NCBI GenBank assembly: GCA_030248065.1
Contig: JASAMV010003913.1
Location: 62,001 to 126,000, forward strand
DNA from: Rhynchonema sp. JSB1_4
Lineage: Eukaryota > Nematoda > Chromadorea > Monhysterida > Xyalidae
Direction of reading: 5' to 3'
Length of the DNA: 64,000 nt
Made by a program: the position numbers and the translations under genes. Numbering within the stretch: position 1 is the stretch's first letter; each line of letters opens with the position of its first letter. A model generated the notes under the pieces. That model was not told where the DNA came from and ran no database searches. It worked only from the letters and a program-made list of their open reading frames with translations. Positions 8,295-56,118 of this stretch are shown here, piece after piece.

Positions 8295-11200
8295 TCAGCG
8301 AGCACCAACTTTCATCTTTTGTTGCTGCCATTTACGTTTGTGATAGGCCTGCGCGAGCGAGTTGACGATGGACAAGATAAAGTAGAAGATCATTGCAGCA
8401 ACCAGATAACCGAACATGTCTTGTAGCCACGAAGATCGCTGCAAATTGCAGGTCATGGAATGTTTGCAACAGTAGAACCAAAAATTTAGCTTCGAATTAT
8501 ATTCCACTAACAATTGGCAGCGCATCGGTGGGCTTGCGATGCAGATTCATTTTTTGTTTGCGCAAAAACTCCTCGAACGGACCGCCGAGCATCTTGCCGA
8601 AAACGGGAATTTGGCTGAAATCATGTACATACTTATTTATCGTATTTGTAGTTAAACAATTCTTCAACGCCAAATTGAATCGAGTTGAGTGGCTGGATGA
8701 GAACGCTGCACCGACCTCATCAATTTCACACATTGCTCAACGTGATGTTCGCTGAACGCAACGATCACAAACAATTTCTGAAAACAACAAATGCAGATTT
8801 TAATTCCCCCTGTTGTTTGCCTGTTGCCGCGCAGCACACGGAAACGGAAGTCGAAAATTGAGTGCACGCACAGACCTGGATATGCATTTTGATCACAGCC
8901 TTTCCCATGAGCGTCGCACCAAAAAACGTCCAGAACGGGACTAGAAAATGGCCGCAAGTGATGCCGGCCAGGTCGAATATGGGATTGGGAATCTGTGTGT
9001 GATCGACAATACGCGAATAATATCCTGCATTTTCTTGTCTACGGAATCGCGATTCTGCGAAAAAAGACCAAACTTACGGAGGCACAAAGCAGAATGCCGA
9101 AGAATCCGACACGTTCGACTAGTTTTTCGACAAAGGTTTTGGCGCGATCCGACCAAGACTGAAACAATACCGAATGTTGGAAGCAGCCGTTTTGTACGCT
9201 GAATTACGACTAAGCGAATACCTGCTGCTGTTTGATTCCTTTGTTTTCGTAGAGTTCCCGGTCACGAAGGAATTGGACGAACTCACGATATTCGGGGTCA
9301 TCCGATTCGACGCCAGACAGACGTGCTGAAAAAACGCGAAACACGTTGTTTGCGCGGTTTGCTCATGGGTTTTGTGACCAAAGAAAAACAGTAATTTGGT
9401 TGACATAAGTAAAAGATTGCGTTCGAAACGCAAAAGAAACAACGAGACAGACCGGCCCTGGCCATGAAGTAGGGCGGCAGCTCTCCGAGTGCAGTGCCAG
9501 CGCCCCACATGAACGCCTCGAGTCGCACTTTGGACATGATTGCCCACAGAGACACCATCGCTGCACCGAACATTGACGTTGAGCCGTTAGTGACATCGTG
9601 ATGATCGTATGGACATACAATTCTGCAAATTGTTGCCATTCAATACTTCGGACACATTTAAATTTGTCTCATAAATTACACCTGTGTGTGTGATGGGATG
9701 CAAACAGAACAAACTAACTGGTCAGGATATGGAGGTTCGGGGAATGCTAGCGAATCACATTCGTACGCCGCCAGCGTGACGGACGCAATGTGCGGACCCT
9801 GAACATGAATTGCAACAGAGTTTTCTCTCACGAAAGATGACGCCATCCGTGAGGAATACAATTGATCAACAAAAACTACCAACCAAGTACAGCAAGAATG
9901 TGTGTAGACCAGTGCCGAGGCCGATTGACGACAGTATGCCAAGACCGAGCCAGTATAAACACCACAGCAATTTCTTCTCAAAGTAACCGATGAACTAAAA
10001 TGCATGAAATTGACGTTTATGAGCTCGGCAACCCGGCTAGTCGTTAGCTAACTTTTTGATGAGGGCCAGCCGAAGTGTATGTGGCATAACCAAGCACAGA
10101 CATTAGAACCAACGCGATAAGTATTCGCTTGTGAGACCAGAGCCTGCAATTGTATTGCTGTGCTGTGCTTGTACGTATGAGTTGACTTTCAAAACATTTT
10201 CATCGACCGTTGCTCACCATAGCAGCCATTCCTTGCACTCCAACACCAATTCAGCAGCAAAATAGCTCAATGTCGTCAACGGTTGACGCCAGATGACGAT
10301 CGTCTGTCGGTCCAACAGGTTCAACGTCGCCACGCTCGGTGACGGACGAATCGAGACGTTGTTCGGCGTGTGACCGTTGCTCTGCAATGATAAATTGACA
10401 ATCGAATGAAATCCGTGCGAACGACGACCGTGAGTGAATTCAATCTCAGCTTGCGGAATGACCCCCTTCCCTTCCCCCTAAGAACTAGACTGCTTCACGG
10501 ACTCATGTATCTATCGTATACTTGCGGGCCGGAAAAAAACCGTTTTTTTCCGAGACCCGGAAAAATACGTTTTTATTTTTCCGAAAATTTTTCCAAGTGG
10601 CAACTTTTGGAAAAAAACCGTTTTTTTCCAAAAATTTCCGAAATATTTTCAAAGGTTGCGAAAGGATGCTATCAAAACCAATGTAAATCGGTACTAAACA
10701 GTTCAAAATGAGCACTTTTTAATCTCCAAGTGCATTCTTGGCCTGTTTCAAGCCATTTCCCGACGAAATTTTCTCGAAAATAGGCGTTTTTGGACCATGG
10801 GTATCCTTAAGTACTGGAAAAATATTTGGAAAAAAACCGTTTTTTTCCAAAAATATATTTTGCGGAAAAATACGCAAGTATAATCTATTGCAAACAACTT
10901 CTGGGGCTCCATCTCTTCTGGGGTCCATCTATCTATCGTCAACAACAACCGACCTCAAAACAGGGTTTATTTTTCAAAATGGGTTAGTAGCAAGAAGCTG
11001 GTGAAATTAAAAATTTAGTAGCTTTTTTGCCGCAGCAGCTTTTAGGCTACTAAATTTGAAAATTTACTAGCTTTTCAAAAAATTTAGTAGCTAAAAAGCT
11101 ACTAAATTTGGTTAAAAAAATCCATGCCTCAAAATCTGTATTTTAGACTCAAAACGCGCGCTACGCGCTAATTTAGTACATCTGAGTACATTTTCATCAA

Positions 11201-23949: not shown

Positions 23950-26900
23950 TTATCTCTTCTTTTTTCTGCCACCCACGGATGGCTTTCTGGCCTTGCCTTG
24001 TCCCTTCTTTGCTCGTCCCTTTGTCTTTTCCTTCGACTTTGCCGCCCTCAAGTCCTTTTTCAATCTCGAGTCCACCATTTTGTACGGTCCCTTCGGTCGA
24101 CCGGTCCTGCCTCGTTTACCTTTGGTCATTTTCACGTATTTGATGTCCGGTTTCTTGCTGGTCGCACCGGCCTTCTTGTAGATTCTGAATAAAAAGAGGT
24201 GTGCAATCAAACAACAGTTATACTCTGCAGGGCAAATTGTGCCGTTATCTCCGGGTTTGCAAATATTTGGACGCAACACGCGCGCTCAAATTTTCCGCGC
24301 GTAATCGAATAATCAGGCCAGTAAGTGACTGACTAACTTTTGCATTTGTCTGGCTTTCTCCTGCGCTGACAGGTCCTGATTATCCACCACACCCTCGGCC
24401 CGTTTGCGTGCCCGTTCTAGTCGACCGATTGCGTGCTTTTTCTTACGTAACTTTGCCTGCGCCACTTTCTTGATCGGTCGTACGTTGAGCTCGCGTTCAC
24501 GTTGTCGGTACTCGGCCACGATCGCCTGCCAATTTGGAACGGTGTCACAAATGAGTCACGAAAATGGAAATATAATAAATACGCACCTTATCGACCGGCA
24601 AAATCGGCCTGTAATGTTTTCGTTCGTCCTCAGCAAACCAGTCCGGCACATTCGTGTCATCGTTGGCGTATCTGCGAGACAAATGTTCATAAAAAACAAT
24701 GTCAATTCAGCAGATTGCGCGAACAGGCATGCCAAACTTGTTAAAAAAAATGAATACAGTATACCTTTCGCAATTGTATAGTCCAACCACGAGCTCATGA
24801 GACGATTTTTTTAAAGCTGCCTTGTGCGGATCCAATAATGTTCCGGTTCCACGCAGTGTAGTTCCTGGTCCGGCGCGGCGGTTAGTGTACCTACCCCTTT
24901 TTTCCGTGCGGTGGTTAGTGTACCTCCCTGGCGGGGAAGGGGGGGGGGAAGACCCAAATTCAGGAAAAAGTCACTTTTTGAGGTAGAAAATTTGACCGAT
25001 TTTTGCCCCTTTTTAGAAAAAATTCTCCATAAAAGGGTATTTTGGCGACTTTTGACATCATTGACCTAAAAAATCACCCATTTTAGGCCTACAAATGCCC
25101 ATTTTAGGCCTAAAAATGCCGGTTGTAGGCAAAAAATTAGGCGGTTAGTGTACCTGGCGCGGCGGTTAGTGTACTAGTGTACCTTGGTCGCGGCGGTTAG
25201 TGTACCTTAGGGGGGACCCCCCTCCCTCCAGGAACTACACTGGTTCCATGTATATCGGAAACGAACGAAAGAGAAACGCACGTATTTAATAAAAATACGC
25301 TCTCCACCTCGAAGCGTAAATTGCCTTTTGACTCCCAAAAGATTTGTGTGTTGAAAAACGTTGCTGTTCGCGTAAGCACGCAACAAATTGAGGTCAGCCA
25401 GCTGGACTTGTCATCATCTCTCTCAGCCCAACTCCTTTCTTTTGCTTTTCGAAACCGTGTAACCGGAGCATTTTTGAATCTGGCCAAGGAAGCTTCAAAA
25501 AAGTCGTATCATGAGCTCGTGGCTGGACTATACTGCATATGGATTTGAGTTACATCTGGATCAGTTCGCATAAAGCCATACCAACCTATTGAATGCCCAA
25601 TCAATCAAATCGCGCCTGGTCTTGGATGAATAGATCAGCTGTTCGCCCATCGCTAACGCCTCCGGTGTCAACTTGATGCGTCTGGAGGCTGCAATTGATA
25701 AAAAGAATGCATGGACAAGGAGTGTATAGCAGTGTTTTATTTAGTTTTTTATAAATGTTAGCAATTGTTATAATAATAGAGTAGTCTAAAGCTGCATATA
25801 TAGTTTCGGACCCTCTCAGGAGACTATATATGTCACAATGTATCCGGGTCCTCATCAAAACAAAAGACAGAATACTTGTGGCGTGCGTTTGAAGGAAGGT
25901 TGTTGGTCTGAGATCGCGCACAAACCAGACGGCGTGTATTCCACACAAAGGCAATTGTAACAGTCATCGACTGCTTCTCAATTATTCACGAGGAAATAAC
26001 GAAGCACAACAAACCTGATTCAGGCAACGAAGGTGTGGCATATACTTGCGTATTTTTCCGCAAAATATATTTTTGGAAAAAAAACCGTTTTTTTTCCGGA
26101 AAAAAAACCGTTTTTTTTCCAAATATTTTTCCAGTACTTAAGGATACCCATGGTCCAAAAACGTCTATTTTGGAGAAAATTTTGTCGGGAAATGGCCTGA
26201 AATAGGCTAAAAATGCACTTGGAGATTAAAAAGTGCTCATTTTGAACTGTTTAGCACCGATTTACATTGGTTTTGACAACATTCTTTCGCAACCTTTGAA
26301 AATATTTCGGAAATTTTTGGAAAAAAAACCGTTTTTTTTCCAAAAGTTGCCACTTGGAAAAATTTCCGGAAAAATAAAAACGTATTTTTCCGGGCCTCGG
26401 AAAAAAAACGGTTTTTTTTCGGTTTTTTTTCCGGAAAAAAAACGGTTTTTTTTCCGGCCCGCAAGTATAGTGTGGCAGTCACCACTTCGAAATCATCATC
26501 TGAAACATCCCAGTCATCCGACACAGAACTTCTCGACACTTGCAAAAGCGAAACATAAATAAGCGAACCGTCAGCTTCTGGCCTGTTGGCCTCCAGATGA
26601 TCAAATTCTGATGTAGGATTCTTCGTCTTCGACTGTTGTTTGGACACTGTTAGAACACAAGGATGGGAGTTAACCTGATTTCATGAAGGAAAGCAAACCA
26701 TTCAGACGCACCTTTGACATTGTACATGTTTTCATAATCGGTCGGCTCTGGTCTCTTCTCCTTCTTCTTCGTTCTCTTCTTATCCTTTGTCTTCTTGCTG
26801 TCAGTCGCGACTGCAGCCAGGTACGCCTCTTCAGCTTCCTGATCTGAGCCAGCCAGATCCCTGTCTGAGCCGGAATCGTCCTCCAGACCGGCGAACGTAG

Positions 26901-29900
26901 CCTGAACACAGACAGGGATTGGTTCATTCGTAATCGACTGCCAAGATGATGCACCACGCCACTTTACCCGTTGAAACCACAGTTCGGCCTTGCGTTTCGC
27001 TTTCTCCTCTTTGTCCAGGCCAGTTTGTTCATCAACCAGCAGAGGGTGATCGATGTCGTCATCGTCAGAAACAGTCGAGGCGCTGAAAGGCAGCGAAACG
27101 TGAATTCGAACGCGATTCTGGGACAATGACTCTGATGCAATTGGGTGGTAGACATAGGTAGCTGGCCGGGTATGCCGATTTGGGGGTGTATTGGTCAAAT
27201 GGTCAAAATTAGGGCTGTATAAAAATAGGTGAAAATTATGCTAAAATAGGCCTTAGACGAGGTAATTTTCTGCATACTAGAAAAAAATATGAGAAAATTT
27301 GACCATTTTGGAGCATAAAACAGCCCTTTTGGTTTTTGGTAGAAATTGACATCCAGTTCCTATCTGACAGGGTGCTTTAAACAAATGTTCAAAAAAATCG
27401 ACTTTGAAAAATAATGTTTTTGATCGTGTGGAGGAATAGCGAATTTGAACGGGCCCAAAACTTATGGCAAAAAAGTCTCACTGATAGCCTCATATTATGA
27501 TGTGAAATTATGCTTTGAAGCTGCTGGCCCACCCAGCAGGGACACAGGTACCTTTCGTTCCCGCTTTCGATCTCCTGTGAATTTTGACCCGCAGAGTGCT
27601 CAGCGACGCTCAACAGTTTCTGGAAAAGAACACACGCATTCGATGAAGTGACATCGAGACAAGACAAAAGCACTGAAACTGTATATCAGTGGCAGCAGTG
27701 CAAGACGAGTGAATCAAATAAGGCCGCATTCACAATGCAGCGGATTAGCGGGTTAGCGGATTAGCGGGTTGCGGATTAGCGGGCCCGCTTTTCGCGCACG
27801 CTTTTGCATTCACAATGGAAATTGAAAAAGCGGATTAGCGGGTCAGCTAATTGGAGACCCGCTAATCCGCTAACCCGCTAATCCGCTAATCCGCAAAAAG
27901 TGTTTGCGCTCACAATGCACGTCGTCCGAGTTTAGGTGAAAAAGTAGATTTACTTCAAAATTTTGTTGTTTGTGTCTTTCTTTGTTCAACAAATGGCAAA
28001 TTACACACATCAAATCAATCAAATGTTGTTATTCTAAATGTTTCATTGGATTGCAGCATTTCCAACCAATAAACAGAAATATAGGAACACCGATCACGAA
28101 AATAGCACGAATAACACATAGGCGTATATTAGAGTGGTCAACTCAAGTGGTCGAATCACTTTGTCAACTTACATTGTAGATTCGTCAACTCACCCCGAAT
28201 GCCATGTATTATTTCTCGCATTTATTTGGGACTGCTGTGAGTTGACTAAGTGATTTGACCACTTGAGTTGACCATTGTAATATTAGCCAAACTTGACCAC
28301 ATGCGCCTCAGGCAGGACGCAGTGTTTATGCACGAACAAACCTTCGCGTGTGTGATATCATAAGCACTGCACTGTCTAGTTTAGCGCAACACAGACTTGC
28401 AGTTTACACGCTGCTAGGTTTATCACTCGCTTTATAGCACGATCGATGCAGAGCTGCGAAGCGCAGCGGTAGCGTGCTGGCCTGCTGAATAATAGGGCGC
28501 GTGTACGACACCGCCCATGGACATCACTTTACATTATTTCTTCAGTTTTTTTGTTTTCATATGAAACCGTGTAAAAATAGCTGGCTGCTGTGGCAAAAAT
28601 GTGAATGAGTTGAATTGCATTCTCGCATTGGTTGTTCGATGCAAGTTATTTCTTCAGTGGCTGGCTGGCTGGCTTTACTTTCGCCACGATGCAAAGCCCG
28701 TCGGAAAAAACAGCAAGCACATTTTGTAATACAGCATTTTACAACCTTGTCGTGTAGAGTCGAAACTGAACGCGATAATGATACCATACGTTGTAAAAAA
28801 TCTCTTTTCCAAACATCAAACTGCAACAAAAACGTTTCCAATGAACGCAGGTGGTTAAGCTGCTAATGTATACACTTTTTTCATGCTCTGAAAATGTTTT
28901 GAAGGCAAATAATAAACTTCTGAACGTGCGCCTCCGGTGCTAATCCGCAAAAAAAATAGAACCAGTTCTAATCGTGAAAAGCGGATTAGCGGACCCGCTA
29001 ATCCGCTAACAGGCTAATCCGCTTTGCATTGTGAATGCACACGCGTGCAGCGGATTAGCGGATTAGCGGGTGTGAAAAGTTGCTCGCCCGCTAATCCGCT
29101 AACCCGCTAATCCGCTTTTTGCATTGTGAATGCAAAAGCGTGCGCATCTCGCCCGCTAATCGGCTAATCCGCTAATCCGCTTGCATTGTGAATGCGGCCT
29201 AAACGAACCTTTGCCGAATTAACATCTTTCAGTTTGAACAGCTCAATTTCGTCCGGCACGTCCGGTCGATCGCCGGCGATGACCATTTTGAGATCATATT
29301 TCTGTTTTCGTTTCTGTTTCTCCTTTTGTTCCTTTCGTTTCCTGCTGCAAAATAATTCAGAGTATTGAAAAAAACTGATCACCAAAACAGCATTTTGTGA
29401 CCTACCGTTTCAGCACTCTTCGCTCTTCCCCTTTGGCCTCTGCAATTTGTCTATCGATTTCAGCATCTTCATCATCGGATTCGCTGCCGTCAGTTGTTCT
29501 GCAAAAACAAAACTTCATAGCTGAGGAGCGAGAGGAACTTTTCAGCGAAACACACATGGACAAATCTAACGTTTTTTGCAGTTGCGTCGATTGTTTCGCG
29601 TCGCGTTCGGCCTTCTCGTCGGGCACAATGATCGTCTTGCGCAACGCCCGTCGCCAATTGAGAATATCGCGCAACGACTTCTTGCCCAAAACCTTGACAT
29701 CTTGCAAACATTCGCGCAGTTCGTTCGTGGTCGACGGATGGCTCGCAAAACGATCGTCATCCAGAATGATCTGACAAACAAGATCACATAAACGTGACGA
29801 TCACAGAATTCAACATTGATTCTGCGCGGTGCATTGACAAACAAGATGTGGGGTATTCGGTTGGACAGCCAAAATAACCACTTTCCGCACATTTTGCTTG

Positions 29901-32900
29901 AACACAAATTGCATTTTTTGCGTTTATTGGACGGTCACCAACTTTGATACCAACCTTGTCTGGAAAGAAAACTTCGGCGCACACAACGCAAACCGACCTT
30001 GTTCGCGTTGCTCAATAATTCCAAGTAATTATCGCTGGTCATGAACACGCTGGCCTTGACTTCATTATATAAAACACGGTCGGTGTCAGAATAACCTTCG
30101 GCCTTTCGTTTACGCTTGTCGGATTGCAATGTGTGTAACCTGAAATGTTGAAATATTAGAATCATGTTTTCATTGGTAGCGCATTTTCATTTTGGCTTGT
30201 TTGTAAGTATTTTGCTTTATGACATAATACAACATTTGAATCAGTCACAACAAGAGAAACTAACGACAATTTCTCTGGCTCCAGGTTCAATTCCTTGAAT
30301 ACCGATTTAGAGTCGAGAAACGTCGGATCAATTTTGTCCGGTTTCAGATATCCAGCGCAGACGACAAAAATTTCGGCCGATTCGTTGCGCGAAGCTTGAG
30401 GCTTGGTGACGTGCACCTGAAAGAAAAAAAACGGCCGTGGTTTTCTTTGGATTCAAAGTCCTATCACCCAGACAAGCAGTGATTGGTGTCGCTCTCGCTT
30501 GACACCGTTCAGTTTCCAGTTCATTTTCGATTTTTTTTTTGGTGAGAGAAAGATCACGGACATCACGACAGATCACAGGACATGTTAACAGAAAACTGAA
30601 ACTGAAAATTTGTATCTGTACTAGCGACACCGATATCCGACGAGAAAATCTAAACGAGCTTACTTTTTTGAACAATTTCTCAAAGACGGTAATCAGTGCG
30701 GGATAATCTTTCGAGCGAAACACCTTTGTGACGAAATATCCGCCTTTGCGAAGGATGAAGGTCGCAAGCTTGAGAGCAGACAACGTCAGTTGAGCTGAAA
30801 ATGCGTGTCGCCGTTAGCGTGAAGTACATTCTGAAAATCAGCATCGCGAAAACAAGGCAATAGAGCGCCAAACCAACCGACCTTGCATGAAAGCGTCATG
30901 CAGCCAGTTTTTGCCGACGTTCGGCGCACCGTCATTCAGCACACAATCAGCGCTCCAATTCTGCAGGTGTTTCTGAATTTCGGCACGCGTTTTGTCGCTG
31001 GTGATGTCGCCTTGCAGCGTGATCACGTTGTTGATCGGACGAATCGGCACCAGATCGACTCCTGAAATGAAGGGTTCGGTTCGTAATACGTATGAAGAGA
31101 TTTTGCACAGAGCACAAAGCATTTTGTACAAAACACGTGTAGTCGGAGCATTTTTGAATCTGGCCAAGCAAGCTTTAAAGAAGTCGTCTCATGAGTGGCT
31201 GGACTATGTGCGGAAGTGGCGGACAATCATCAACACACCATCTGTTCTGGACGGTTGACAATATGGACTGATAAAAATGTGCCTTCCGAGCCCGGCATTG
31301 CGGTTTGACGTAGGCGAGGATCAATGCATAAAATTTTCAGTTTCTGTTAACATGTCCTGTGATCTGTCCTGATGTCCGTGATCTCTTTCTCTCTCCTTGG
31401 CGCTTTATGCAGCTTTTATTTGCTGTAGTTTTTTTATAACCAGTGTTGTAACTATTTTTTTATTTCAGTAATTGTCCCACCCGGTCTTGTAACTGTGCTT
31501 CTATCACTAATTTACGCGCATGGTTTTATGCGTCATTGCGAGCAATAAACCAACCAAGAGATTTTGTACAAATCAAAAAAACAAAAGGCTTGATCGAACC
31601 AACCAATGATGATACTTGACGGCGCCATGTTCTGCGCGGCCACCTGTGTCCAGCCGCCCGGTGCGGCACACAAATCCACCAGCACTTTGCAGCGCGACAA
31701 AAAATCAAACTTGCGATTCAACTGAATGAGTTTGAACGAAGCGCGAGAACGATAGCCTGCATATGACGACGACAGCGATTGAGTGTCAAAAACGTGGCCG
31801 ATAACAGGGGAATCAAACTTGATCTGGCCTCTTGGGATGCTCATTGACAAAATTTAACTCAAAGAGCAGTGGCACGAAACCCGCTAGCCAGTGATCGACG
31901 CGTTTTTTACCATCAACACCCCGGCCAGGGTTTTTTGCCACCACTGGTGGCTAGGGTTAGAGGTCGGGGGGGGGGGGGGGGTACCCGACACCAGACAGCC
32001 GACACCCGACATCTGGAAGTACCCGACACCCGACATCGGAGAAAAAAAGCCGACACCCGACACCCGACAGCTGCAAAAAAAACCCGACACCCGACATCTA
32101 GTTTTTGAAAAAAACCGACACCCGACACCTGTTTTTGGACCAAAAACAGGCAAATTTTTGCTCCTTTGCATCATTAGTGCAATTTTTTGGCTCAGGTTAC
32201 TGAATTCAAGTAATTTCACACGAAATAAACACCAAAATGTCACATTCTGCGTCTTCGGAAACGGTTCGACGAAAATTTCCACTCAAATTCTTCTCTCAGC
32301 AAAACTGATGTTTTGAACCGTAAGTGTCGGGTGTCGGGTGCCAAAAAAACCGACACCCGACATCTGGGGGTACCGACACCCGACACCTACACTTTTTTGG
32401 CACCCGACACCCGACATCTCTCTAACCCTAGTGGTGGCTTACTATAAATTTTGAATGAGCCACAAGATTTTGGCAAATGATCCACCAATGAGTGGGCCAC
32501 TGGCCCATTTTGAAAAAAACCCTGACCTCAACAATAGCACAACAGTAGTGATGCTGATGTCCCAACGTTACTCTCGCATGACCTACCCTACCCGCCCCGC
32601 CAAAGTAGCTACAGCACTGATGTGCTACCTGTGTATGTGTACCATACCAAACATCGGGGGGATACCTACTGTACCAGAGTGCTGTGGCTGGGGAGGTGGG
32701 GTGGGGGCCAAAAGTACAGTATCCCCCCTCGCCGGTACCGCGCGGTATGTGCCTCCCGCGCTGAGGTACAGTGTCTCCCCCTCTCTGGTACGGTATCTCC
32801 CCCAATTTTTCCAAAATTTCACCCCTGAACGGGCTACCCCCGCAAACCCCCCTCTCCACTTCGAACACTGCCCCCTCCCCCAACCCCCCTAACTACACAA

Positions 32901-33170
32901 CTGTCAGCATCTAAGAAGACCTGCAGAATTCGGTTTACCGGACCACGGAAATTTTTTCTGTTGCCTCACCGGACCCCTGAATTTTCGGTCTTAGACACCT
33001 TACCGGGCGAGGGGGAAAAATTTCTACCTTGCACCAGTGGTCAGAACACAGAAGGCATTCGCCCAGCGGCGCATGACCGAACTGCAGCAGAAAAAGAACA
33101 AACCGGTTTCCTTCGCCAGTTGATAGAATTTATCGCGCCTTTGTTTTCCGACTTTACTTTTCTTCCCCAT
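23950..33170 (-). CDS. FTSJ3: SPB1/FTSJ3 pre-rRNA 2'-O-ribose methyltransferase
   Basis: Seventeen exons: 33170-33104, 31756-31604, 31061-30882, 30794-30664, 30416-30268, 30139-29998, 29770-29571, 29498-29406, 29344-29209, 27619-27552, 27082-26968, 26901-26712, 26646-26015 (interrupted), 25688-25586, 24671-24587, 24525-24338, 24184-23950 (stop 23952-23950). Leaving out the 26041-26469 insertion and one 8-bp duplicate, all phases agree and give 809 residues (yeast Spb1 841, human FTSJ3 847). The start [20 protein letters not shown] is the family N-terminus. The FtsJ domain shows [16 protein letters not shown] (SAM motif I), [14 protein letters not shown] and [11 protein letters not shown]. The Spb1 C-terminal domain has [43 protein letters not shown] and a basic tail [16 protein letters not shown]. 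It is a nucleolar enzyme that methylates 2'-hydroxyls in pre-rRNA of the large subunit. Whether this copy still makes full-length protein depends on the exon-13 insertion. Confidence 0.95.
24779..25530. mobile_element. Tc1/mariner-type element with a nested MITE
   Basis: TA duplications (24777-24778, 25531-25532) flank TIRs starting TAGTCCAACCACGAGCTCAT. It lies in an SPB1 intron and contains the 24854-25242 element. A solo right end of the same family is at 31139-31207 in another SPB1 intron. Confidence 0.8.
24854..25242. mobile_element. MITE, CAGTGTAGTTCCTGG family, GGCGCGGCGGTTAGTGTACC word variant
   Basis: Complete TIRs, flanks GTTCCACG and GTTCCATG (7/8). The core matches the 2122 copy closely, but each subterminal word is GGCGCGGCGGTTAGTGTACC or close to it, instead of GGAGGGGGAGATAGTGTACC. 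Confidence 0.9.
26015..26646 (-). pseudogene. FTSJ3: SPB1 coding exon 13 split by a MITE
   Basis: Exon 13 reads ...[16 protein letters not shown], then the 26041-26469 element, then PSLPES and a donor at 26014. The 8-bp GTGTGGCA (plus strand) is present on both sides. Removing the element and one duplicate leaves 195 nt with phases that match both neighbours. With the element, 437 extra bases shift the frame and translation would stop about 80 codons into the element (near 26237). I found no GT-AG pair close to the element ends that restores frame, so either an unusual splice occurs or this allele is broken. Confidence 0.85.
26041..26469. mobile_element. hAT-type MITE, TATACTTGCG family (8-run copy), inside a coding exon
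   Basis: Ends TATACTTGCG / CGCAAGTATA with a perfect 8-bp duplication GTGTGGCA at 26033-26040 and 26470-26477. The A- and T-runs of its CCGG-flanked palindromes are 8 long. 429 bp. Confidence 0.95.
27722..29199. mobile_element. PIF/Harbinger-like element filling an SPB1 intron
   Basis: Ends GGCCGCATTCACAATGC / GCATTGTGAATGCGGCC with TAA duplications at 27719-27721 and 29200-29202 (TWA is typical of PIF/Harbinger). The word GCGGATTAGCGG recurs many times, in both orientations, in the left 180 bp and right 220 bp. The interior holds a fold-back (28134-28275) and a tRNA-like stretch (28456-28520). No transposase frame, so non-autonomous. It makes up about 1478 of the 1589 bp between SPB1 exons 9 and 10. 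Confidence 0.85.
28456..28520 (+). other. tRNA-like remnant
   Basis: GCGCAGCGGTAGCGTGCTGG resembles the D-arm and anticodon-stem side of an initiator-type tRNA, and GTACGACACC is a weak box B. Pairing is poor; not a functional tRNA call. Confidence 0.3.
30543..31396. repeat. Inverted repeat pair flanking SPB1 exons 3 and 4
   Basis: The arm at 30543-30609 is the inverse of 31331-31396, with a few changes (shared block GATCACAGGACATGTTAACA). The two arms lie in the introns on either side of exons 3-4 (30664-31061). They belong to the repeat family also seen at 1-168. Confidence 0.8.
31952..32430. mobile_element. hAT-type element with CCGACA subterminal repeats
   Basis: Ends TAGGGTTAGAG / CTCTAACCCTA, flanks CTGGTGGC and GTGGTGGC (7/8). 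The arms are arrays of CCGACACCCGACATC and its inverse, a different word from the other families. It lies in SPB1 intron 1, 479 bp. Confidence 0.8.
32575..32900. mobile_element. Fragments of CAGTGCTGTGGC-family MITEs
   Basis: A right end AGCTACAGCACTG with TACCCGCCCCG word at 32583-32619 and a left end GAGTGCTGTGGCTGGGG at 32670 followed by GGTACAGTATC-type words. No target duplications found. In SPB1 intron 1. Confidence 0.55.
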
Positions 33171-33711: not shown

Positions 33712-34521
33712 CCGTATTGTCGGAAATAGAACCCCCCCCATTAATTGACCCCCCCCCCCCCCCCCCCAATTAATTGAACCCCCCCCATGAATCGCACCCC
33801 ACCCCCGACCTTCACCGTACCACAGATTAGTGGTATGGTAGGGCTGTGTTGTTGTGTCGCGTATACTTGCGTATTTTTCCGCAAAATATATTTTTGGAAA
33901 AAAAACCGTTTTTTTTCCGGAAAAAAAACCGTTTTTTTTTCCAAATATTTTTCCAGTACTTAAGGATACCCATGGTACAAAAACGCCTATTTTGGAGAAA
34001 ATTTTGTCGGGAAATGGACTGAAACAGGCTAAAAATGCACTTGGAGATTAAAAAGTGCTCATTTTGAACTGTTTAGCACCGATTTACATTGGTTTTGACA
34101 ACATCCTTTCGCAACCTTTGAAAAAATTTCGGAAATTTTTGGAAAAAAAACCGTTTTTTTTCCAAAAGTTGCCACTTGGAAAAATTTCCGGAAAAATAAA
34201 AACGTATTTTTCCGGGCCTCGGAAAAAAAACGGTTTTTTTTCGGTTTTTTTTCCGGAAAAAAAACGGTTTTTTTTCCGGCCCGCAAGTATAGTGTCGCGT
34301 ACACAACAGAATACAGCTTTTTAAGCATAATAGACGCTGTTAAAGGTAGAAAATACCGAAAACAAGCCATTTTTATGGGCATTATTAACAATGATTTTTT
34401 TCGTCGGGGGGCCAAATGAAAAATATAACCCCCCCAATAATTGACCCCCCATAAATTGAACCCCCCCAAAATGACCCCAGTGAAAAAATAGACCCCCCGG
34501 GTTCTATTTCCGACAATACGG
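33712..34521. mobile_element. Tc1/mariner-type MITE (middle shell)
   Basis: TA at 33710-33711 and 34522-34523 flanks ends CCGTATTGTCGGAAATAGAA and its inverse. Words of the type CCCCCCATTAATTGA recur near the ends. The 33862-34291 element lies inside. A solo left end is at 52806-52842. Confidence 0.8.
33862..34291. mobile_element. MITE, TATACTTGCG family (8-run copy), inner shell
   Basis: Perfect 8-bp duplication GTGTCGCG at 33854-33861 and 34292-34299. Nearly identical to the 26041 copy; all but one A/T-run are 8 long (one is 9). Confidence 0.95.
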
Positions 34522-35422: not shown

Positions 35423-35645
35423 CAGTGTAGTTCCTGGTCCGGAGGGGGAACAGGCGGTACCCCCCTTTTTTTCGGAGGGGGAACAGACGTACCCACAGTG
35501 TAGTTCCTGGGGGGGGAGGGGGGGTCCCCCCCCCCTAAGGTACACTAACCGCCGCGACCAAGGTACACTAGTACACTAACCGCCGCGTCAGGTACACTAA
35601 CCGCCTCAACTTTTGCCTAAAATGGCCATTTTTAGGCCTAAAATG
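35423..35645. mobile_element. Two left-end fragments of CAGTGTAGTTCCTGG elements
   Basis: 35423-35493 carries the GGAGGGGGAACAGACGTACC word and 35494-35645 the GGTACACTAACCGCCGCG word; each starts with CAGTGTAGTTCCTGG. The two abut, suggesting a nested insertion later truncated. Confidence 0.7.
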
Positions 35646-55185: not shown

Positions 55186-56118
55186 TAGGCCTGGGCACAA
55201 TACCACTTTTGACACCCAATACCAATACCAATACCGGCCCTGTACCAATACCCAATACCCAATACCAATACCAAATTTGGGACCCAATACCAATACCGGG
55301 CGAGACCCAATACCAATACCAATACCCAATACCAAATCAATACTACTGAAGTGCCTGGTATTGGGTTTGGTATTGGGTTGGTATTGGTATTGAGTATTGG
55401 GTATTGGGTTGGTATTGGTATTGGGTATTGGTCTTAGTATTGGGTTTTTGGTCTGGTATTGGGTTGGTATTGGGTTTGGTATTGGTTTGGCATTGGGTTT
55501 TGAATCAGGTATTGGGTTTGGTATTGGGTTTTTCTGGGTTAGTATTGGGTATACTTGCGTATTTTTTCGCAAAATATGTTTTTGGAAAAAATACCGTTTT
55601 TTTCCGGAAAAAAACCGTTTTTTTCCAAATATTTTTCCAGTACTTAAGGATACCCATGGTCCAAAAATGCCTATTTTGGAGAAAATTTTGTCGGGAAATG
55701 GCCTGAAACATGCTAAAAATGCACTTAGAGATTAAAAAGTGCTCATTTTGAACTGTTTAGCACCGATTTACAATAGTTTTGACAACATCTTTTCGTAACC
55801 CTTGAAAATATTTCGGAAATTTTTGGAAAAAAACCGTTTTTTTCCAAAAGTTGCCACTTGGAAAAATTTCCGGAAAAATTAAAAACGTATTTTTCCGGGC
55901 CTCGGAAAAAAACGGTTTTTTTCCGGCCCGCAAGTATAGTATTGGGTATTGGTTTTGACCCAATACCTGGGCAAACCCAATACCAATACCCAATACCAAT
56001 ACCAGGCCAGCTTCAATACCAATACCCAATACCTGAATTAGACCCAATACCAATACCAAACACTGGTATTGGTATTGGTATTGGGTGGTATTGGTATTGG
56101 GTATTGTGCCCACCCATA
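55186..56118. mobile_element. hAT element made of CCAATA arrays
   Basis: Ends TAGGCCTGGGCACAATACC / GGTATTGTGCCCACCCATA with a perfect 8-bp duplication GCCCTGAG at 55178-55185 and 56119-56126. Nearly all its own sequence is CCAATA or its inverse with short spacers. The element at 55550-55938 is inserted in it. Confidence 0.92.
55550..55938. mobile_element. MITE, TATACTTGCG family (7-run copy)
   Basis: Perfect 8-bp duplication GTATTGGG at 55542-55549 and 55939-55946, taken from the host CCAATA array. A/T-runs are 7 long, with the first A-run broken by a substitution. 389 bp. Confidence 0.94.

Follow-up and report, generated by a model that had tools for sequence, protein, structure and literature searches.

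Ds insertions in exons of the maize waxy gene are partly spliced out, and a literature search for hAT MITEs that are likewise spliced returned none. SPB1, the host gene in the present case, owes its description as essential to yeast. Mar of Drosophila is a Buster-type hAT MITE with the ends CAG(G/A)GGTAGGC, and Buster-type hAT elements favour a central TA in their duplications, according to the part of the source available to us (PMC3517528). Introners, as far as the accessible part of their description goes, carry 8-bp duplications and inverted repeats, and some of them add a few codons (PMC9860276). The case described here is a MITE lodged in coding exon 13 of SPB1, for which a sequence-only reading had left three explanations: removal from RNA in the manner of an introner, a heterozygous or broken allele, or the existence of another copy of the gene. 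We consider the second the best supported, and it seems to us probable that the insertion in SPB1 is recent and polymorphic, and that the assembly lacks the intact allele.

The window (the whole 64,000-nucleotide stretch analysed) comprises bases 62001-126000 of contig C2389, and the assembly searched holds 204 Mb in 5747 contigs. The SPB1/FTSJ3 gene occupies positions 23950..33170 of the window on the minus strand, and was fitted by hand as a model of 17 exons whose product, once the insert is left out, amounts to 810 codons plus a stop. All 16 introns of this model start with GT and end with AG, their phases are consistent, and the 16 exons other than exon 13 have an open frame with no stop; the rest of the gene is therefore undecayed. 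When seven translated pieces were compared with Pfam, FtsJ was matched in one and Spb1_C in three, above the cut-offs, and the three remaining pieces, among them the occupied frame of exon 13, were unmatched. Both the FtsJ methyltransferase and the Spb1_C domain by which SPB1 is recognised are thus present, and the insert-free translation can be aligned with animal SPB1/FTSJ3 proteins. In a midpoint-rooted tree the gene joins 13 nematode or nematode-like rows and branches outside them, a placement from which a hairworm or an early-branching nematode could be guessed as the host. Identities to the protein collections reached at most 58% among the best 120 of 5233 matches and at most 59% among the 22 matches listed in the other search, so neither the host species nor any close relative was represented there by a transcript among the matches listed.

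Several introns of the gene contain repeats of their own. Intron 9 has arrays of the palindromic GCGGATTAGCGG at 27740-27890 and 28970-29190, and most of intron 10 (469 nt) is occupied by two high-copy repeats, 27147-27332 and 27340-27510. Intron 13 contains a 141-bp repeat (25717-25857), to which 39 further places in the genome were scored as matches, 89-99% identical. In intron 14, a block at 24854-25242 is bordered by the inverted motifs CAGTGTAGTTCCTGG and CCAGGAACTACACTG, the first of which is found again near 35423 and 35496.

The element in exon 13 lies at 26041..26469, measures 429 bp and ends in a 10-bp terminal inverted repeat, TATACTTGCG; its G+C content is 33% and it contains many GGAAAAAAAACCGTTTTTTTTCC palindromes. 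It is flanked by two exact copies of the 8-bp target-site duplication GTGTGGCA, at 26033..26040 and 26470..26477, just as the sequence-only reading had reported. The span which that reading had given, 26015-26646, turned out to be the entire occupied exon on the minus strand (26015..26646, 632 nt), bounded by the acceptor CTAACAG and the donor CAG/GTTTGT. Removal of the element and of one duplication leaves an exon of 195 nt with phase 1-1 in the hand-fitted model, which bears out the insert-free length and the fitting phases proposed before, and exon 14 (25586..25688, minus strand), the next better conserved exon, starts in phase 1. The insertion lengthens SPB1 by 437 nt, that is 2 modulo 3, and the frameshift that had been claimed follows: read straight through, 59 exon codons are succeeded by 77 element codons and then by a stop, the SPB1-strand frame being closed within the element. 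This stop precedes the Spb1_C domain, and exons 14-17 would be lost in such a product. Insertion, duplication and frame shift are all direct observations.

A sample of related copies was assembled from the best 40 near-full places scored among 2105 first-look candidates, the SPB1 copy included, and it is biased in that its members are the best matches to the SPB1 element itself. The 39 other stretches fetched, together with the window, yielded 46 matches of at least 380 nt. At the expected ends, 8-bp duplications were exact in 40 of these 46, had one mismatch in 1 and three or more in 5; these last 5 copies were excluded, and the counts below refer to the other 41. The constant duplication length across the family means that the one in exon 13 is not a product of chance. 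Short, present in high copy number, bounded by inverted ends and too short for a transposase, the element has the properties of a MITE. A second copy is located on the plus strand at 33862..34291, ahead of the SPB1 start codon by about 0.7 kb, is 98.4% identical and has the duplication GTGTCGCG. Two diverged copies, 55550-55973 (94% identical) and 10482-10882 (88%), are also found in the window and have no matching duplications at the expected ends.

As for the surroundings of the family members, the flanks of 28 of the 41 copies are repeated elsewhere in the fetched sequence. One copy (L031) is placed in a larger intron of a gene read as dihydrolipoamide dehydrogenase (DLD), about 26 nt past the apparent donor, and another (L049) in or near an intron of a gene read as ATP synthase alpha. 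The SPB1 copy is the only exonic one recognised among the 41, a count to be taken as a lower bound. Nine frames of other copies, chosen from larger lists (one of them with 74 frames), gave no Pfam match above the cut-off, and nor did the SPB1 frame run alongside; the sole match listed reached 11.7 bits where the cut-off is 27 and was rejected as chance.

The same reading had assigned the element to the hAT superfamily, and we find this assignment likely. It is favoured by the 8-bp duplications and by a preference of the Buster type, nnnTAnnn: a central TA was present in the duplications of 8 of the 41 copies, which is above background and falls short of a rule (p 0.002, one-sided, when compared with the 5.8% of the flank background, and p 0.011 when compared with base composition). 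The genome has at least 150 matches to the hAT dimerisation domain (150 of 330 candidates were scored and all matched), but TATACTTGCG ends were present at 0 of the 20 such loci examined (about 3.2 kb each), and because no transposase with the same ends came to light there, membership of the superfamily is a likelihood and falls short of proof.

Comparison of the 41 copies indicated that the one in SPB1 is a young insertion. It has zero private differences, and each of its three deviations from the consensus recurs in 4 to 9 other copies. It shows 0 differences from copy L017, one each from L018 and L020, and two from L019, and within the subgroup formed by these five copies the pairwise differences range from 0 to 3, the other 36 copies averaging 10. 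Identical pairs also exist among those 36, and on these distances we regard the subgroup as young without calling it the youngest.

The members of this subgroup could be asked for empty counterparts. The left flank of the L020 copy, on contig C5532, has only one other match that we found, on contig C4361, and there the site is exactly empty for L020, with no element and a single TCATAAAC where L020 has two. The left flanks of the two contigs are 99.4% identical over 1551 columns, and the right flanks are identical for 500 nt, 92-98% identical up to 900 nt and then 57-98% identical per 100 nt. The simplest reading of this pair (L020 on C5532, L083 on C4361) is that of an occupied and an empty haplotype, and it could be a recent duplication instead of alleles. 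Since the L020 site has this exact empty counterpart, the subgroup appears to be insertion-polymorphic. For the other members, no counterpart was found for SPB1 and L017, and the repetitive flanks of L018 and L019 could not be judged. In the case of SPB1, the assembly yielded no empty allele, either to flank searches or to a search for the 41-base string of the empty site in which up to 3 mismatches were allowed. Outside the subgroup, no near-identical second contig was found for the L031 copy; its flank with the DLD exon has 82-88% matches at C1038:5463-6630, perhaps a duplicated or decayed piece of DLD, and beyond C1038 only short matches elsewhere.

Taken with the youth of the SPB1 copy, the empty site of a sister copy that differs from it by one position makes a heterozygous or broken allele the best supported of the three explanations offered earlier; copy age and empty sister site are there to be read in the DNA, and from them we infer that SPB1 itself is heterozygous. 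In this scenario, a recently mobile, probably hAT-type MITE would have entered exon 13 of SPB1 and produced the usual 8-bp duplication. Normal splicing of the exon would then shift the frame and bring in the stop within the element before the C-terminal domain, and the occupied allele would be a loss-of-function or strongly reduced one. An intact SPB1 allele would be present in the sequenced individual or pool and would keep the animal viable, having been dropped from the assembly.

The main rival, and a serious one, is a fixed or homozygous insertion that is tolerated, with splicing either skipping exon 13 or using an upstream donor at 26568; we hold this to be possible, if on balance unlikely. 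Only 4 of the 17 exons are symmetric, and exon 13, with phase 1-1, is among them; being 195 nt long it can be skipped with preservation of the frame: the join of exons 12 and 14 stays open, and 65 residues are removed. It is also the least conserved exon, with a mean identity of 13% and gaps of 32% over 21 homologues (15-82% identity in the other 16 exons), and it belongs to an acidic linker that is weakly conserved. The sequence-only reading had raised neither this low conservation nor the in-frame skipping. The candidate alternative donor, ACG/GTTCGC, lies within exon 13 on the upstream side of the insert (26568..26569, minus strand) and is in frame with the exon 14 acceptor. Splice scores were computed with matrices from just the 16 introns of this gene, a small basis that limits them, and one on which its donors score between -5.0 and 11.3 when each is left out in turn. 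The combination of donor 26568 with the normal exon 14 acceptor reached 17.4, the top of 34 in-frame joins between exon 13 and exon 14; its use would remove 39 codons. The failure to see an empty SPB1 allele in the assembly is also as this alternative would have it. Against it, the splice sites of exon 13 are intact and the upstream intron is just 65 nt, which would favour inclusion by intron definition. The part skipped contains DDFEVV, which resembles a motif of many non-nematode homologues, and loss of this motif is the exception to the small cost that bypass of so poorly conserved and symmetric an exon might have. The location of the insert is a weak hint, since an insertion at random in the coding sequence would fall in exon 13 with a chance of about 8% (195/2433). 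Were the spliceosome indeed to bypass a fixed insertion, which we put forward tentatively, a lone young transposon would be causing the exon of a conserved gene to be skipped, an exon-to-intron change caught early, and the locus would document the birth of a skipped exon rather than a recessive broken allele.

An intact SPB1 gene at a second locus absent from the assembly would equally spare the animal, and an assembly of 5747 contigs may be incomplete. We think this improbable. A genome search with Spb1_C gave 3 matches, each of them an exon of the one SPB1 gene, and the unique SPB1 DNA at 29209-29800 matched nothing in the assembly except itself; the second gene copy for which the sequence-only reading had suggested a search was thus not found by either route.

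Removal of the element, alone or with a little flank, as a new spliceosomal intron is a further notch down in probability and we regard it as very unlikely. The resemblance to introners set out above speaks for it, and 39 in-frame splits could be enumerated, the best with a score of 11.7. However, the top-scoring splits would retain long K/F-rich peptides of the element, and 0 of the 9 registers for exact removal had GT-AG, GC-AG or AT-AC ends. The lone AG near the end of the element (its last 60 nt and the next 20) scored -11.4, to be compared with 0.5 to 14.0 for the 16 acceptors of the gene under leave-one-out. It is this lack of good splice sites at the ends in the SPB1 orientation, together with the lack of an exact register, that tells, at the level of sequence, against introner-like removal as it had been suggested. 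Nor was any of the 41 copies identified as an entire intron; that of L031 sits inside the larger DLD intron. A splice in the sense orientation of the element, from a donor at element base 10 to an acceptor at base 425 with 21 nt left behind, had scores of -2.2 and -4.3 and does not apply to SPB1, where the element is antisense.

That the insert is an artefact of assembly is less credible again. The element is repeated in the genome, and assembly joins through repeats can be wrong, but a false join would carry the flank of another site, and here the 8 bases of SPB1 are exactly duplicated and the frame resumes beyond the element. Least plausible of all is a precise somatic excision of the DNA, IES-like and leaving one 8-bp copy, that would make the germline copy harmless: removal of the element and one duplication restores the open frame of SPB1 and the empty C4361 site is likewise exact, but there is no sign of regulated excision, a never-occupied empty allele would look identical, and precise excision would seem pointless at the 28 of 41 copies with repeated flanks.

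With a recent polymorphic insertion as the preferred explanation, the locus is a clear example of a DNA element that has recently entered the coding sequence of a gene central to ribosome biogenesis. The empty counterpart of the sister copy suggests continuing mobility of the family. It also calls for caution in annotation, where SPB1 may here be called truncated although everything in it apart from the insert is intact. With the known SPB1/FTSJ3 rRNA 2'-O-methyltransferase the gene has the FtsJ and Spb1_C domains in common, and it is similar to human FTSJ3 (8fkp_SJ) across two stretches (query 1-448 and 447-791); what sets it apart is the interruption of exon 13. Like Ds in maize waxy, the insert is a probable hAT element in a coding exon, splicing being known for Ds and the SPB1 insert being known from sequence alone. 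In the portion of their description at hand, introners are, as here, high-copy non-autonomous DNA elements with duplications and inverted repeats that enter coding exons, and unlike them the present element has no good end splice sites in the SPB1 orientation and its other examined copies were not recognised as whole introns (PMC9860276). From Mar the element differs in its ends, TATACTTGCG here as against CAG(G/A)GGTAGGC, and in that a matching transposase was not found here, but, going by what the available part of the source says of Mar, both are short and non-coding, with short inverted repeats, 8-bp duplications and a preference for a central TA (PMC3517528).
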